A stretch of DNA of 41,174 nt from the NCBI GenBank assembly GCA_020347625.1, contig CP070735.1, positions 2,932,129 to 2,973,302 of the forward strand, in the 5' to 3' direction. The stretch comes from Deltaproteobacteria bacterium. GTDB lineage: Bacteria; Desulfobacterota; Syntrophobacteria; BM002. Positions 6,147 through 35,707 of this stretch are shown piece after piece. Below the pieces are notes generated by a model, which had not been told where the DNA came from, did no database searches, and saw nothing but the letters and a program-made list of their open reading frames with translations. Numbering within the stretch: the stretch's first letter is position 1; the number at the start of each line of letters is the position of its first letter. The position numbers were made by a program, and so were the translations under genes.

Positions 6147-6243
6147 GCCGGGCAGTAAACACTGCCGAGCGGGCAGCGAGCGGCAAGCAGCAAGACTGAT
6201 AGATGACTTGTAAGCTCAGATCTGCCAGCTGCTAGCTGCTCGC
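6147..6243. repeat. Phrase palindrome B (GCAGC / CAGCTG words)
   Basis: Left arm 6150-6200 repeats GGGCAGCGAGCGGCAAGCAG-type words; right arm 6216-6243 carries their complement (CTGCCAGCTGCTAGCTGCTC). The right arm contains the tsaD stop codon and encodes the last residues of TsaD, so the element has fused to the gene end. Same vocabulary as palindromes at 23971, 25484 and 34613. Confidence 0.7.
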
Positions 6244-7302
6244 TGCAAGATCCGGCCAGCGCGAAATGGCGTCAAAATCGAGGTCCCAATCACCATTGGT
6301 CTGTCTGAGCCGATAAAAACCAGCGGCGGCGATCATTGCTGCATTGTCGGTGCAGAGTTCAGGTCTGGGCAATTCTAGGGGGAGACCAAGGCTAGCCACC
6401 TGGTCCTGTAATCGCTGGCGCAGACGGCTGTTGGCCGCCACCCCGCCAGCCACCACCACCTGGCTGACCTCAAATCGTTGAGCTGCAGTACAAGTCTTTT
6501 CCACCAGTACGTCTACCACCGCCTCTTGGAAGCTGGCGACAATATCGGCAATCTGAACCGGAAGCTGGTTTCCCAATGAGGGAGCACCAACAGCAATACC
6601 ATTCCCATCGTCTTGAGTGGTGTCCAGATATCTCCGAACGAAATTGACCACTGCGGTCTTGATTCCACTGAAACTGAAGTCGAGGGAGTCCTTTTCCAGG
6701 TAAGAGCGTGGGAAAGTAATGGCTTTCGGGTTGCCACTGCGCGCCAATTCATCAATAACCACTCCACCCGGGTAGCCAAGATCAAGGAACTTGGCTACTT
6801 TATCGAAGGCCTCACCAGCTGCATCATCCCGGGTTCGACCGACCAAAGTGATGTCGCCGTAGTCCTTGACGTAGTAGAGATTGGTGTGACCCCCAGAAAC
6901 TACCAGGGCAATAGCTGGAAAGGAGGGTGGCGAGTCCTCCAGAAATGCGGCAAGAATGTGTCCCTCCAAATGATTTACGGCAACCAGTGGTTTACCCGTG
7001 GCGTAAGCCAGCCCTTTTGCAACCCCGACTCCCACCAGAAGGGAGCCAACCAGGCCCGGCCCCTGGGTAACAGCTATGGCATCCACGTCTGGCAGGTCCA
7101 CACCTGCCCGTTGCAGTGCCTCGGAGATCACCGGGACGATTACCTTTAGATGTTGCCGCGAGGCTAGCTCAGGCACCACTCCGCCGTAGGGGCGGTGAAT
7201 GACAATCTGTGAGGATACCACACTCGAAAGAATCCGGCGCCCATCTTCGACCACAGCAGCAGCGGTCTCATCACAGGAGCTTTCGATACCTAAGACAATC
7301 AC
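6232..7302 (-). CDS. tsaD: tRNA N6-adenosine threonylcarbamoyltransferase TsaD
   Basis: Transfers the threonylcarbamoyl group to A37 of tRNAs reading ANN codons, working with TsaB and TsaE. The start GIESSCDETAAAVVEDG is the family signature. The metal-binding HxxxH is His111 and His115 in NHLEGH, and GPGLVGSLLVG and VSGGHTNLYY are the nucleotide-binding segments. The protein has 356 residues, slightly longer than the usual 335-345, partly because its last codons come from an intergenic repeat. The start is GTG with GAGGT eight bases upstream. tsaE of the same pathway lies 7 kb away; tsaB and tsaC are not in the window. Confidence 0.97.
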   Translation of the reverse strand: MIVLGIESSCDETAAAVVEDGRRILSSVVSSQIVIHRPYGGVVPELASRQHLKVIVPVISEALQRAGVDLPDVDAIAVTQGPGLVGSLLVGVGVAKGLAYATGKPLVAVNHLEGHILAAFLEDSPPSFPAIALVVSGGHTNLYYVKDYGDITLVGRTRDDAAGEAFDKVAKFLDLGYPGGVVIDELARSGNPKAITFPRSYLEKDSLDFSFSGIKTAVVNFVRRYLDTTQDDGNGIAVGAPSLGNQLPVQIADIVASFQEAVVDVLVEKTCTAAQRFEVSQVVVAGGVAANSRLRQRLQDQVASLGLPLELPRPELCTDNAAMIAAAGFYRLRQTNGDWDLDFDAISRWPDLAASS

Positions 7303-7344
7303 AGGTCTTACCTCTTGGTTAGTAGATTGCTCAGCGATTGTTAT

Positions 7345-7466
7345 TTTTCATGTGTCATTTTGCATCTCGCATTTTTCATTTAAATGGAGTGACGTCGTGA
7401 CTCTTATCCCCAATGTGCAATGATAAATGCCCAATGATAAATGCGCAACGATAAATGCAAAGCTGC
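7345..7466. repeat. Phrase palindrome C (GATAAATGC / GCATTTTTC words)
   Basis: Left arm 7345-7378 carries GTCATTTTGC, ATCTCGCATT and TTTCATTT words. Right arm 7409-7461 carries three tandem copies of a word like GCAATGATAAATGC. The loop holds GTGACGTCGTGAC. It lies in the divergent gap between tsaD and moaA. The word recurs inside the palindrome at 23971. Confidence 0.65.
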
Positions 7467-10683: not shown

Positions 10684-10760
10684 CTCACCTTGGTAAAGAA
10701 GTTATTTGGCGTGATTAAAGGAAGCTAGAAAATTCTAGAGTGCGCCTGAAGCATTAACGA

Positions 10761-10859
10761 TTTTAGATTGCAGATTGCGGATTGCGGATTGAAACTGCGA
10801 AATTTGGCTAACTTCGAAGCCCAAAGCTTTTAAATCTGCAATCTAATATCTTAAATTTT
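10761..10859. repeat. Phrase palindrome E (AGATTGC words)
   Basis: Left arm 10761-10790 has four tandem words of the form AGATTGCGG. Right arm 10832-10859 has TAAATCTGCAATCTAATATC. The right arm runs into the cimA stop codon at 10851. Same vocabulary as 35740-35767. Confidence 0.75.
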
Positions 10860-12431
10860 CTTGTCTTCGTCCTTGAACATCTTATAATTGATGCTGTCCA
10901 CCAGCGCCAGCCAGCTGGCCTCAAGAATGTTCTCCGAGACTCCCACTGTGCCCCACACGCTTTCTCTATCGACAGATTCTATTAGCACCCGAACCTTGGC
11001 GGCGGTGCCTTCTTTACCAGGTAATACCCTGACCTTGTAGTCGTTTAACCGCATATTTGCTAGTTCTGGATAAAACTTTTCCAGGGCCTTGCGAAGGGCG
11101 TTGTCCAAAGCATTTACCGGCCCCACTCCACTGGCGGCTGTGTGCTCCACCTTTCCGCCGACTTTCACCATGACCGTAGCCTCTGATTCCGCGGTCTGAC
11201 TTTCATCCGTCTTAGATACGAGAACTCTAAAGCCCACCAGTTCAAAATATCGCTTCACCTTCCCCAGCGCCCGGTTCAGCAGAAGCTCAAAGGACCCTTC
11301 TGCCGCCTCGTATTGAAAGCCCTCGTGTTCGAGTTCCTTGAGTTCTTCCAAAACCTGCATGGCAATGGGGTCCTTGCTGGAAATCTTTATACCGTATTGC
11401 TCAGCCTTTTGTTTTATGGTGCTGCGACCGGAAAGATCTGAAACCAGAACGCGCCGCTGGTTGCCAATCAGCTCCGGTTGCATGTGCTCGTAGGTTTGCG
11501 GGTTACGCTCCACTGCTGCCACGTGTACTCCGCCCTTGTGGGCAAAGGCGCTACGCCCCACATAGGGTTGGTACCTAAATGGCCGGATGTTGGCCAGTTC
11601 GAGAATGTACCGGGAAGTCTCGCGCAGCTTGGTGAGCTGCTTGTCTGTCAAGCAATCCAGGTTCATCTTCAACTTGATGGCTGGAATGATACTGCAAAGA
11701 TTGGCATTGCCGCAGCGCTCCCCCACACCGTTCATCGTACCCTGAACGTGGTTCGCTCCCAGTTCCACTGCCGCCAGCGAGTTGGCCACGGCCAACTCAG
11801 AGTCGTTATGGGTGTGGATGCCTAGCTCAGCCTTGGGAAACTCCTTTTTCACCCTTCGGATGATTTTTCTCAGCTCTTCGGTAAGGGTCCCGCCGTTTGT
11901 ATCACAGAGGACGAGACAGTCGGCACCCGCCTCCAGCGCCGCCTTGAGAGTGGCAAGAGCATATTCCGGGTCCGCCTTGAATCCGTCAAAAAAGTGCTCG
12001 GCATCATAGAAAAGTTTCCAGACCTTTGGCCGCAGATATGCCAGTGAGTCGTGGATTATTTCCAGATTCCTCTCTAGGGTGGTGCGCAATGCATCCCGAA
12101 CATGCACATCCCAGCTCTTGCCGAAGATGGTAACCACATCGGTCTTCGCTTTTAGGAGCGCACCCAAGTTGCGGTCTTTGTCCGCCGCAGAACGGGGATT
12201 GTGGGTACTGCCAAATGCTGCAATTTTGGCCTGCTTCAGTTCGTAGTTCTTGATCTCCTTGAAGTAGGCAACATCCTTTGGATTTGACCCGGGCCAGCCA
12301 CCTTCTATGTAGTTTATGCCCAACTCATCTAACTTCTTGGAACAACGAATCTTATCCTCTAAAGAAAGATTAAAGTCTTCTGCCTGGGTTCCATCCCTCA
12401 GTGTCGTGTCATAGATCTCTATCTTACGCAT
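10851..12431 (-). CDS. cimA: (R)-citramalate synthase
   Basis: Condenses acetyl-CoA and pyruvate to citramalate, the threonine-independent entry to isoleucine. The HMGL-like barrel starts with [15 protein letters not shown], and the metal site HxH is in [14 protein letters not shown]; the motif [15 protein letters not shown] is typical. The C-terminal part (about 390-520) is the LeuA-type allosteric domain. At 526 residues and with an [11 protein letters not shown] segment it matches the CimA clade known from Geobacter rather than LeuA. AGGA lies six bases before the ATG. It lies downstream of lysC on the same strand, with a word-repeat element between. Confidence 0.94.
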
Positions 12432-14666: not shown

Positions 14667-14692
14667 CGACTTCTTGTGGTCCGTGAGAAGCA

Positions 14693-14868
14693 AACTAGGC
14701 ACTAGGGACTAAGCACTAAGCACCAAAACTTGTAACGGGGAATGGGGAACGCGGAGTTACAAGAAGCGAAGAAAGCAGTTACATAGACCAGCTATAATCA
14801 AACATTCAGAGTTCCGAATTCCGTGTTTTTATCTTTTGTGCCTAGTGCATAGTGTCTAGTGCCTAGTC
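14693..14868. repeat. Phrase palindrome G (CACTAGG words, nested GGGGAA words)
   Basis: Arms of about 32 bases (14693-14724 and 14837-14868) pair over most of their length; each is four tandem copies of a word like CACTAGG. Inside lies a second, weaker pair: GGGGAATGGGGAACGCGGAG at 14737 and its mirror AGAGTTCCGAATTCCGTG near 14810. It separates nnr and tsaE. Confidence 0.8.
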
Positions 14869-14894
14869 TTTCCTTGCCTTTATTAGCTACGCCT

Positions 14895-23966: not shown

Positions 23967-23970
23967 ATGC

Positions 23971-24150
23971 TCCAGCTGGCAGCTGACAGCGGGCAACTGG
24001 CAGCTTCAGACATTTCGCATTACGCCTTTCTCATTTATCACCCTACATCTTGATGAAATAGTTCTTGATTCTAATTGATAATGCGACATGAGAGATGTGA
24101 AATGTAAAATGTGCCTGCTGCTTGCTGCAATCTGCCTGCTGACAGCTGAC
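23971..24150. repeat. Phrase palindrome J, two vocabularies nested
   Basis: Outer arms 23972-24006 and 24112-24150 use GCAGCTGACAGC-type words. Inner arms 24010-24042 (CATTTCGCATTACGCC) and 24076-24111 (GATAATGCGACATGAGAG) use GATAATGCG and GTGAGATG words. The order is mirrored, so the whole region can fold back on itself. It lies between the convergent mazG gene and the SRP RNA, touching the T tract of the latter. Confidence 0.75.
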
Positions 24151-24158: not shown

Positions 24159-24432
24159 CCTTGGCCGTGCACCCCTCGTCGGGTTCAATCCTTCCAGGGA
24201 ACTGTCAGCGTCAGAGACCTGATTAGAGATATCCGCGACACAAACTGCAATACTTACCGCTGCTTCCTCCCGGACCTGACGGGGTTCGTATCCGTTTGTT
24301 GCGCAGTGTCCAATCAGCACCAACCACCGACAGGCCCAAGTCGGACTGTGGCTCTTCGAAGGGAATTCGATCCCGCATAAGCGGATTTCGGGCTACAGGG
24401 CACCGCTAGCTCCCCATCTAGCACGACCAAGG
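24159..24432 (-). ncRNA. ffs: Signal recognition particle RNA, long bacterial form
   Basis: RNA scaffold of the SRP, which targets nascent membrane proteins. The conserved Ffh-binding apical hairpin is at 24253-24287 (minus strand: CAGGTCCGGGAGGAAGCAGC). The 5' end CCTTGGTCGTGC pairs with the 3' end GCACGGCCAAGG over 12 positions with one G-U pair, which defines an RNA of about 274 nucleotides. The 5' part carries GCTAGATGGGGAGCTAGCGG and TGCCCTGTAG, which I recall from long SRP RNAs of Geobacter-like bacteria and which should form the Alu part. The apical tetraloop is GGGA rather than the common GGAA, still GNRA. Promoter and T tract flank it exactly. Confidence 0.95.
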
Positions 24433-24447: not shown

Positions 24448-24540
24448 GCTTCGCTGAAAGCCGATTCCCACCACAAACAGCATAAATAATACAAAACGAC
24501 ATCAGAGATGATGTCGAATCGGCAACATCTCTGGGACCAC

Positions 24541-24700
24541 GGATGTGAGATATGGGATCTAGACATTCAGGAATTGCAAATTTAGGGATTAAGGAATTGA
24601 GCGCGGTCTTGAAAAATCCCTGAATTCCTGAATTTGATCCTCACATCTCAAATCTCACATCAACCATCGGTTTACCTTCTTCGCGCTCTTCGCGGATTTA
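24541..24700. repeat. Phrase palindrome K (GTGAGATG + GGAATTTA + CGCGAAG words)
   Basis: Left arm 24541-24600 reads GTGAGATATGGGATC words, then GGAATTG and TTTAGGGATTAAGG words. Right arm 24612-24662 carries the complements in mirrored order (AATCCCTGAATTCC, then CTCACATCTCAAATCTCACA). A further word, CTTCGCGCTCTTCGCGGA at 24680, follows up to the stop codon of the TraB-like gene. A separate perfect 6-bp hairpin is at 24498-24515. Confidence 0.8.
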
Positions 24701-25440: not shown

Positions 25441-25479
25441 GAGACCTTTCCCGTATAGCCCATCGTTGGTCGCGATTCT

Positions 25480-25625
25480 CCAGCTGGCAGCTGACAGCCC
25501 GCAGCGGGCAGTTTGTAGATTGGTCAACGGTGAATGCCTGAATGCGCCTCCGTTAGGATGCTTTTAATCGCCGTGCCTTTGCGTCTACGCGTCATTCTAC
25601 CTGCCTGCTGCACTCTGCCCGCTAC
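25480..25625. repeat. Phrase palindrome L (GCAGCTGACA words)
   Basis: Left arm 25480-25515 (AGCTGGCAGCTGACAGCC, GCAGCGGGCAG) and right arm 25604-25625 (CTGCCTGCTGCACTCTGCC) use the same words as 23971 and 34613. The right arm begins right behind the J-domain stop codon; the left arm overlaps the open frame before the TraB-like gene. Confidence 0.7.
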
Positions 25626-25955
25626 TTATTCGTCTTCTTCCTCTTCCCTCTCTGCGCGGATGTTCTCACCAAACCGTTGGTACCACCACTTCTCTGGGTC
25701 AAAAGACTCCACCACTTCCGGGAGAAAGGAAAAAGGATAGTTCTCGCAATAATCCAGAAGTAGACGGTAGGCAGCGTTGATTTCCTTAATCTTCTTTGAA
25801 TCTCTTGGATCTTCGCTCAGAGCGTCAGGATGCCACCTCTTGCACATGCCACGATATGCAGCCTTGATCTCCTGGATACTCGCCTGCTCTCTCAGGCCCA
25901 GGAGGCGACGGGCCCGTTCGATCTCGACAGCATTAAAAGCGGTTCGCTTCATCAT
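25626..25955 (-). CDS. Short J-domain (DnaJ-like) protein
   Basis: Predicted Hsp70 cochaperone of about 109 residues. The J domain spans about 8-70: RRLLGLREQASIQEIKAAYR, then the diagnostic HPD in KRWHPDAL, then IKEINAAYRLLLDYC. The C-terminal tail FDPEKWWYQRFGEN ends in a strongly acidic run. There is no Gly/Phe or zinc region, so it is a type III protein with a specialised client. I use the ATG pair at 25955/25952, with AGGA close upstream. It follows the HAD gene by 26 bases. Confidence 0.9.
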   Translation of the reverse strand: MMKRTAFNAVEIERARRLLGLREQASIQEIKAAYRGMCKRWHPDALSEDPRDSKKIKEINAAYRLLLDYCENYPFSFLPEVVESFDPEKWWYQRFGENIRAEREEEEDE

Positions 25956-33683: not shown

Positions 33684-34250
33684 CTAATGGTGACAGGTGT
33701 CGCAGCTGTTTGAAACATTTTCCCTGGCGTGACAATCTTCGCACACGTGCATCTTCATAATTTCAATGGGGTAGCCAGTAAGGCGGTTTATCTTGACCGG
33801 AGGTGCCTTGATTTCATTTTCCACATCCCGATGGCATACTGAACAGGCCATCTCCGCCATCTTTACATGAGCCACGTGGGAGAAGAAGACATTGTCAGGC
33901 TGCCTGGTGTAAGAGACCCAGGGAATCTCCTTTTCCGGCTCCACAAATTCTGACACCAGTCTTTCCTCGTCCTCGGTCTCACCCTGTACCTCTCCATGAC
34001 ATTCGACACAGGCTGACAACATGGGTTTGCCGGCATAGGTGCCGTCCTCCCGAAAATAGTGGCAATCCTCACAGCTCAAGCCTGCCTCTTCCTGGTGGAT
34101 TTGGTGGTTGTAATTTATCGGCTGGTATTCAGTCGTGTAAAGGAGTTGCGGAAAAACTACCCAACCGACAAACAGGGCACCAGCAAAGCCCACAACAAAG
34201 AGGAGCCAACCTAGTAGACCAGAATCGTGCTTCTTGTTTTCTTCGGTCAT
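33684..34250 (-). CDS. qrcA: Qrc complex multihaem cytochrome c
   Basis: Membrane-anchored periplasmic cytochrome of 188 residues that accepts electrons from cytochrome c3. One uncleaved N-terminal membrane segment is at about 12-36. Five CxxCH motifs are visible: CEDCH, CVECH, CSVCH, CEDCH and CDTCH, the last in the C-terminal SCDTCHH. QrcA of Desulfovibrio is described as hexahaem, so one haem may be missing or bound by a variant motif. GAGG precedes the ATG. As first gene of qrcABCD it is read from a sigma-70-type promoter at 34402-34430. Confidence 0.9.
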   Translation of the reverse strand: MTEENKKHDSGLLGWLLFVVGFAGALFVGWVVFPQLLYTTEYQPINYNHQIHQEEAGLSCEDCHYFREDGTYAGKPMLSACVECHGEVQGETEDEERLVSEFVEPEKEIPWVSYTRQPDNVFFSHVAHVKMAEMACSVCHRDVENEIKAPPVKINRLTGYPIEIMKMHVCEDCHARENVSNSCDTCHH

Positions 34251-34483: not shown

Positions 34484-34513
34484 TTGACATCGAGGTAAGA
34501 AGTTCCCTATGTT
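34484..34513 (+). promoter_or_regulatory. Possible promoter of the lysR gene
   Basis: TTGACA and TATGTT with an 18-base spacer. If used, the leader of about 290 bases would contain the whole nested palindrome at 34567-34742. Confidence 0.4.
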
Positions 34514-34566: not shown

Positions 34567-34742
34567 GCGCGTAAGGCTTAGGGCACAAGGCCTAGGGCAC
34601 AAGGAAAATAAAGTTGGCAGCGGACAGCTTGCAGCAAGCAGCCAATATTCATCACGACCTGCCAGCTGCTTGCTGCCGGCTGCATGCTGGGCAAGGGCCT
34701 TTGCCCTGTGCCTTGCATCTTGGCCCTGGCGCCTTGCGCCGT
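34567..34742. repeat. Phrase palindrome P, two vocabularies in mirror order
   Basis: Order is A-B-loop-B'-A'. A (34571-34604): AAGGCTTAGGGCACAAGG words. B (34613-34643): GGCAGCGGACAGCTTGCAGC words. Loop 34644-34657. B' (34658-34689): CTGCCAGCTGCTTGCTGCC. A' (34690-34740): GGGCCTTTGCCCTGTGCC and CCTTGCATCTTGG. It stands between the divergent qrcA and lysR genes, 68 bases before the lysR start. Confidence 0.8.
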
Positions 34743-34810: not shown

Positions 34811-35707
34811 ATGGACCTTCGTCGATTGGAAGTCTTCTGCAAGGTTTATGAATTGAAAAGCTTCTCACGTGCGGGTGAGGCCTCATTGCTTTCCCAGCCG
34901 ACCGTAAGTGAGCATATTCGCCATCTTGAGCACTTACTCGAAGTGCAACTTTTTGACCGCCTTGGTAGGGAGGTGGTTCCAACACGCGCCGGCGAGATCC
35001 TCTATAATTACGCTCGCCGCATGTTGAATCTGAGAAGGGAGGCGAACCGTACCCTGGAACTTTACCGGGGAAAGACCTCTGGGGAATTGGAGCTGGGAGG
35101 CAGTAACATACCGGGCCAGTACATTCTGCCTCCTCTCATTGGCAGCTTCAAAGAGAACTTTACAGATATTCGTATACGGTTGGTTATTTCCGATACCATG
35201 AAAATTACCAACATGGTACTGGAGGGTTCTTTGGAGCTCGGCGTGGTTGGAGCAAAAATGAAGAATAACAAATTGCACTTCGACCAACTTTTTCACGATG
35301 AACTTGTACTGGCGGTATCACCCGACCATAGTTGGGCCAGCCGCACCACCGTTAGCTTAGAGCAGCTCTCAGAGAGTCCCTTTATCATGCGTGAACATGG
35401 CTCGGGGACCAGAATGATGATGCTGGAGATTCTGGAGCAGGCAGGTTTCGATTCCCAGAAGCTGAACGTTGTGGCGGAGATGGGCAGCACCGAGGCCATC
35501 CGGCAAGCGATCAAAGCCAAAGTGGGAGTTTCTATTCTGTCACGCCGTGCCATTGCTGATGACCTTCGCTTTAAGCAACTTCGTCACGTTGCCATCCGAG
35601 GGCTCACCTTTTCCCGTCACTTCTATCTGGTGACCCACATAAAGCGCTCCAGATCGCCTGTGGGACAGGCTTTCGTGGATTTTCTCACAGAAAATCGGGA
35701 CAAGTAA
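34811..35707 (+). CDS. LysR-family transcriptional regulator
   Basis: DNA-binding regulator of 298 residues. The winged HTH covers about 1-60 (MDLRRLEVFCKVYELKSFSR, then LSQPTVSEHIRHLE). The effector domain covers 90-295, with LELGGSNIPGQYILPPLI, ELGVVGAKM and GSTEAIRQAIKAKVGVSILS. This start has AAGGA six bases upstream; the frame is open far upstream, but that part lies in a word palindrome and is not coding. The whole sequence resembles the CysB/CbbR-like clade that NCBI names selenium-metabolism-associated LysR, from memory. It is divergent from qrcA and could control it, but this is only positional. Confidence 0.92.
   Translation: MDLRRLEVFCKVYELKSFSRAGEASLLSQPTVSEHIRHLEHLLEVQLFDRLGREVVPTRAGEILYNYARRMLNLRREANRTLELYRGKTSGELELGGSNIPGQYILPPLIGSFKENFTDIRIRLVISDTMKITNMVLEGSLELGVVGAKMKNNKLHFDQLFHDELVLAVSPDHSWASRTTVSLEQLSESPFIMREHGSGTRMMMLEILEQAGFDSQKLNVVAEMGSTEAIRQAIKAKVGVSILSRRAIADDLRFKQLRHVAIRGLTFSRHFYLVTHIKRSRSPVGQAFVDFLTENRDK

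Follow-up and report, generated by a model that had tools for sequence, protein, structure and literature searches.

Among the longer simple repeats, those of seven nucleotides are reported to be the commonest in many bacteria, the top class between 5 and 11 nt in most genomes, and they are usually ascribed to polymerase slippage (Mrazek 2007, as cited in PMC4679880 and PMC4692102). The Beggiatoaceae repeat TAACTGA is one exact word, for which a single indirect repeat was reported (PMC4692102, PMC4679880). Paired arrays appear in the 2009 genome paper of Geobacter metallireducens, whose account of repeat sites describes pairs of tandem 7-8 nt sites in classes 1-3, that is, few classes with 8 to 24 pairs each, which were read as regulator sites, with IHF/HU proposed (PMC2700814). 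Our literature search found no paper describing bacterial palindromes of heptads nested in one another. Among miniature mobile elements, MITE and REP/BIME/REPIN copies have defined inverted ends, and within a copy one arm normally matches the other.

The element described here lies upstream of a lysR-type regulator gene in the window (the whole stretch of 41,174 nucleotides that was analysed). It is one copy of a large, little-described class of nested seven-base-word elements in an uncultured, sulfate-reducer-like genus, a class with a period of seven, words of fixed polarity, and an inner module, B, that is reused within different outer words. On balance, we favour reading the feature as a nest of two dispersed miniature foldback-like elements that were presumably mobile.

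The nested hairpin upstream of lysR

Four arrays in the mirror order A-B-loop-B'-A' can be read directly in the sequence at 34573-34740 (Table 1), as the original prediction had claimed, and models of the vocabularies, derived from the full sample, place exactly A(+), B(+), B(-) and A(-) at the element with scores of 24-29 bits (25.8 for A, at 34567-34608, 26.5 for B and 29.4 for B'). Two separate word families are indeed nested here, with cores of about GGCaCAA (A) and GCAGCnn (B), both of period 7. The arms pair by word core, not letter by letter (the B arms are about 80% complementary), and heptads are more numerous in A' than in A. The predicted RNA fold reaches -93.2 kcal/mol on the plus strand (z -3.99) and -91.0 kcal/mol on the minus strand (z -4.30), with 0 of 200 shuffles as good in either case, which upholds the expectation of folding better than shuffled sequence; with DNA parameters, z is -2.5.

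Table 1. Positions in the window of the nested arrays and of the features around them
Feature	Position	Strand	Sequence or basis
Divergent multihaem cytochrome gene	33684-34250	-	Pfam Cytochrome_C7 / Cytochrom_CIII; qrcA-like by neighbourhood (molybdopterin oxidoreductase next)
Sigma-70-like promoter	34484-34513	+	TTGACA-18-TATGTT; faces lysR
A, left outer arm	34573-34604	+	AAGGCTT AGGGCAC AAGGCCT AGGGCAC AAGG; period-7 array, vocabulary GGCaCAA
Junction tag	34605-34615	+	AAAATAAAGTT; joins outer array to left arm of B; common form GAAATACAGCT
B, left inner arm	34616-34643	+	GGCAGCG GACAGCT TGCAGCA AGCAGCC; period-7 array, vocabulary GGCAGCn
Loop	34644-34659	n/a	Sequence and fold
B', right inner arm	34660-34691	-	GCTGCTT GCTGCCG GCTGCAT GCTGGG
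A', right outer arm	34692-34740	-	CCTTTGC CCTGTGC CTTGCAT CTTGGCC CTGGCGC CTTGCGC
Terminator-like GC hairpin and T run, end of A'	34727-34741	+	Consensus match alone
lysR-type regulator gene	34811-35707	+	Pfam HTH_1 and LysR_substrate; start MDLRRLEVF chosen by ortholog conservation

Since the promoter lies upstream and faces lysR, the element is probably located in the lysR leader; the congeners examined retain the TTGACA box ahead of lysR. A 380-aa open reading frame that runs from TTG 34565 across the element was set aside, the orthologs beginning with MDLRRLEVF (ATG 34811).

The vocabulary models also mark many arrays in other parts of the window, and inverted heptad pairs of various words occur at six additional places, 6167-6251, 7338-7461, 10753-10860, 14690-14874, 24538-24669 and 25478-25627. 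At 23969-24148, a B pair surrounds a gAAATGa pair and ends 16 bp before a large SRP RNA match (24165-24426, minus strand). This SRP RNA was the sole match in an Rfam search of the window, which returned nothing at the lysR element.

A genome-wide class of period-7 arrays

The original prediction missed that the genome contains hundreds of such elements. The segment has 64 matches in its own genome (3.22 Mb, one contig), the best of which is 86% identical over 110 bp and spans B, the loop and both asymmetric junctions, with a different word immediately outside. Within 500 kb of this genome, taken at fixed coordinates, 124 arrays of lag 7 were detected, 112 of them intergenic, compared with 0 in shuffles and at most 13 arrays per 500 kb at any other lag below 14 (0-2 at lags 3-6 and 10-13). 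The density amounts to about 250 arrays per Mb, about 90% of them intergenic, and clustering yields about 20 vocabularies with at least 5 arrays each. A small excess was also seen at lags 8 and 9 (13 and 8 arrays per 500 kb, respectively), likewise in the congener G002.

The genome was sampled as 20-kb stretches, with open reading frames called by a simple rule, and 840 kb of it, partly chosen near matches, served to train the vocabulary models, with G002 as an independent check. All genomes compared are MAGs, the relatives being uncultured and labelled Deltaproteobacteria, Desulfobacterota, Desulfobacteraceae or Syntrophobacterales. Array detection combined with exact-consensus pairing found no nests; the arrays are too degenerate for this, and vocabulary profiles are needed. 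Core columns of the vocabularies are about 0.8 identical and wobble columns near 0.4, both within arrays and between loci, and C looks rare in the wobble columns of several left-arm words.

Array density in G002 is about that of the genome studied here (G000). It is low in G010, which belongs to another genus of the same family, and falls further in G030, a member of the same class. Exact A' words are patchy in the phylum, occurring in 12 of 198 genomes, while the reversed control gave one match each in 2 genomes.

The words have a fixed polarity. In G000, same-vocabulary pairs are inverted in 140 cases and direct in 15, versus 25 and 17 under permutation, and the pairs of each word nearly all face one way; same-word neighbours within 300 bp are arranged left-right 179 times, right-left once and directly 15 times. 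G002, which was not used in model building, shows the same polarity with 58 inverted and 4 direct pairs, the exception being one pair of the near-palindromic word tCGAAaT, and in other families of the phylum same-word neighbours of GGCaCAA are left-right in 12 cases and right-left in 0. When neighbouring arrays are counted regardless of word (LL 88, RR 86, LR 173, RL 20), left-arm runs are followed by right-arm runs, with 174 LL/RR transitions against 20 RL.

Where two complete pairs occur at one place, 12 are nested, 0 crossing and 6 side by side, whereas random insertion would give about 9% nested, this being the share of free intergenic length that lies in loops. One composite family accounts for five of these 12 nests, which leaves about 8 distinct nest types. 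The layers follow an outer-to-inner order: aGgGCAT then GCagGCA (15:0), CGCAtAG then AAcGGTa (15:0), and GCagGCA then ACTAgGC (13:3). The order in the right half is predicted from that in the left half at 42:13, and the order in G002 from that in G000 at 41:4. The position of A outside B at lysR is one instance of this general grammar.

Both modules also occur apart. A stands by itself at loci L009, L014-L017, L057 and L064, B is found without A at L010, L011 and L018, and B lies within aGgGCAT in place of A at L003, L020 and many more. The junction tag followed by the start of B has 18 copies in the genome and 0 in the reversed control. At most of these 18 places the tag GAAATACAGCT and the B start abut the outer array in the same phase, suggesting that part of the nesting arose as composites were copied, or as elements entered at a precisely defined position.

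Two further assemblies were observed alongside. A composite CGCAtAG/AAcGGTa nest with the conserved loop GATTATGCGC...CGCAAC recurs in G000 and G002, its loci including L070:11969-12123, L086:2985-3145, L116:14476-14604 and L120:620-767. At L014-L017, the A-word pairs are contained in a larger non-heptad repeat with the ends AGGCCC...GGACCTGG / GACCTGGCCC...GGACCAGG.

Candidate explanations for the arrays and nests

Short intergenic units with inverted ends of tandem sub-sites, a variable loop, many copies, module reuse and nesting point to a non-autonomous foldback-like element. Each element would consist of two short arrays of a single degenerate heptad word, in inverted orientation and separated by a short loop, and in the 5' leader of lysR a B element would sit inside the pair of A arrays. 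Such elements would belong to the foldback or MITE-like type, with the heptad arrays acting as end sequences that might be read in register by trans-acting machinery, whether a protein or something else. New copies would preferentially enter, or preferentially survive in, the loops of existing copies, and some composites would subsequently have been copied whole. The occurrence of A without B, of B without A and of B within other words, and nesting far above random insertion, fit the original suggestion that one palindrome was inserted into the loop of another. The large hairpin would then be a by-product of the inverted ends, exerting no conserved control over lysR, and the lysR element probably represents the remains of a mobile element, not a switch of the gene.

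No transposase, empty site or empty/filled pair with target duplication was established. Nor did the 1.24 Mb sample contain a heptad-ended copy that carries a gene, and the same-word left-right excess stops by about 300-600 bp, with none at gene-sized distance. RAYT/Y1_Tnp, the one transposase family compared, was considered as the mover and rejected, as gene counts do not follow array number: Y1_Tnp genes number 2 in G000, 1 in G002 and 0 in G007, and 9 in G030 even though that genome has few arrays. Against mobility, furthermore, each of the about 20 vocabularies would require its own recognition specificity unless one reader served them all, and the fixed junctions may reflect copying of a few composites instead of repeated loop insertion. 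A more far-reaching version, which we put forward tentatively and regard as rather doubtful, would extend this to the genus as a whole: about 20 foldback elements coded by heptads, each word having a polarity of its own, would insert into one another's loops, following a canonical sequence from the outer to the inner layer. Successive waves of elements would then have left a layered record in the nests, and the enzyme behind them, as yet undescribed, would read DNA in steps of seven bases and tolerate, or favour, arms that match imperfectly.

The main rival to the mobile-element reading is that DNA- or RNA-binding proteins, such as global regulators or nucleoid proteins, recognise the arrays as paired sites with a direction, in which the core is selected, the wobble is free and nesting results from the packing of sites. 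The contrast between core and wobble columns, the fixed polarity and the inverted pairing all agree with binding sites, which is also the proposal made in the G. metallireducens account for paired 7-/8-nt arrays (PMC2700814). However, there are hundreds of arrays in about 20 words, the vocabulary in the lysR gap is not conserved among congeners, and nesting in a canonical order would not be expected from site packing, so that we consider this explanation unlikely.

Replication slippage, by which seven-base simple repeats would grow and decay with inversion as a secondary event, is less likely still. It has been proposed for heptanucleotide repeats in general, as noted above, and some long aGgGCAT arrays do look slippage-like. 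Yet adjacent heptads are alike at 0.418 compared with 0.400 when dealt at random from other loci within the vocabulary, a small although significant excess that leaves slippage a small part, in line with the original view that simple tandem slippage does not suffice. Strict polarity, inverted partners, mirror nesting and a layer order shared across species are not predicted by slippage.

It is also improbable, to a greater degree, that the hairpin is a functional RNA leader or attenuator of lysR ending in the terminator-like hairpin. The strong fold, the promoter upstream with the hairpin in the leader, and an A' array near -70 common to six species speak for such a function. Nevertheless, the opposite strand folds equally strongly, and the count of terminator-like consensus matches is not above shuffle expectation. 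In ten further lysR leaders from nine congeners, the orthologous gap varies widely. Five congeners (G001, G003, G004, G007 and G008) carry an A' array without A and without B, its end about 57-68 nt from the lysR ATG, compared with 70 nt in the window. The leader of G009 contains a nest of aGgGCAT / tCGAA-type / inverse / aGgGCAT' (z -4.6) and that of G002 a similar one, whereas G006 has neither the A' array nor such a nest. In this comparison, which the original prediction had proposed, five congeners keep A' only and two carry other nests. Four congeneric leaders (G004, G001, G006a and G005) showed no pairing above shuffles when folded; those of G003, G007 and G008 fold well, probably owing to a different hairpin. 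The predicted location between divergent genes in the lysR leader probably holds, but the hairpin is not conserved there, and the unpaired leaders tell in part against the prediction, namely against a conserved lysR structure. The lysR gap is a hypervariable leader. Inspection of the gap sequences by eye revealed no clean filled/empty site pair. In the same gap at L023, L024 and L029, another dispersed-looking hairpin, GCTTGCTCCTACAG ... TGTAGGAGCAACC, is present, twice in tandem in L024.

Finally, strand copying by template switch or palindrome duplication, also raised in the original prediction, would account for the mirror order and the complementary word cores but is contradicted for the whole class and is highly improbable at lysR, because arms created by copying or kept by selected pairing should agree more at wobble positions within a locus than across loci, whereas they agree less in both G000 (0.427 versus 0.479; 0 of 1000 permutations as low) and G002 (0.461 versus 0.507; 6 of 1000). 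At core positions, same-locus and cross-locus arms do not differ. The lower wobble agreement indicates that the complementarity of the arms comes from their common word, and the deficit itself may result from loss of perfect palindromes.

Comparison with known repeat systems

MITEs and REP/BIME/REPIN elements resemble the present elements in being small, non-coding, intergenic and dispersed inverted repeats. The traits of MITEs found here are inverted ends, short length, lack of coding sequence, multiple copies and intergenic location; the ends, however, are degenerate heptad arrays, not defined sequences or one TIR. In anatomy, the only level at which we compare them, the Drosophila elements Foldback and Galileo are similar, being described as having long inverted ends of short internal tandem repeats with unequal arms, but they are eukaryotic and much longer, and Galileo has a P-superfamily transposase.

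The heptanucleotide repeats of Calothrix/Nostoc, Xanthomonas and Beggiatoaceae are likewise of period 7, intergenic, multicopy and patchy across taxa, but they are described as direct repeats that lack inverted partners with a set polarity (PMC4692102, PMC4679880). The arrays of G. metallireducens are, in that paper's account of its repeat sites, short tandem 7-/8-nt arrays in opposite-strand pairs at variable distance, mostly intergenic and multicopy, and the same account makes no mention of nesting, a canonical layer order or about 20 vocabularies (PMC2700814). By eye, the class 3 consensus given there, MTYCTGA, resembles the AGaAtCc vocabulary described here, on the other strand. The present arrays share two features of those paired heptads, tandem 7-nt words and opposite-strand pairs at variable distance.

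The question of why the repeats have a length of seven thereby becomes testable, and a candidate reader or mover of seven-base words is implied. The arrays are of the same kind as the heptanucleotide repeats and the paired arrays of G. metallireducens; new here are the number of vocabularies, the strict polarity, the mirror nesting in canonical order and the wobble deficit.
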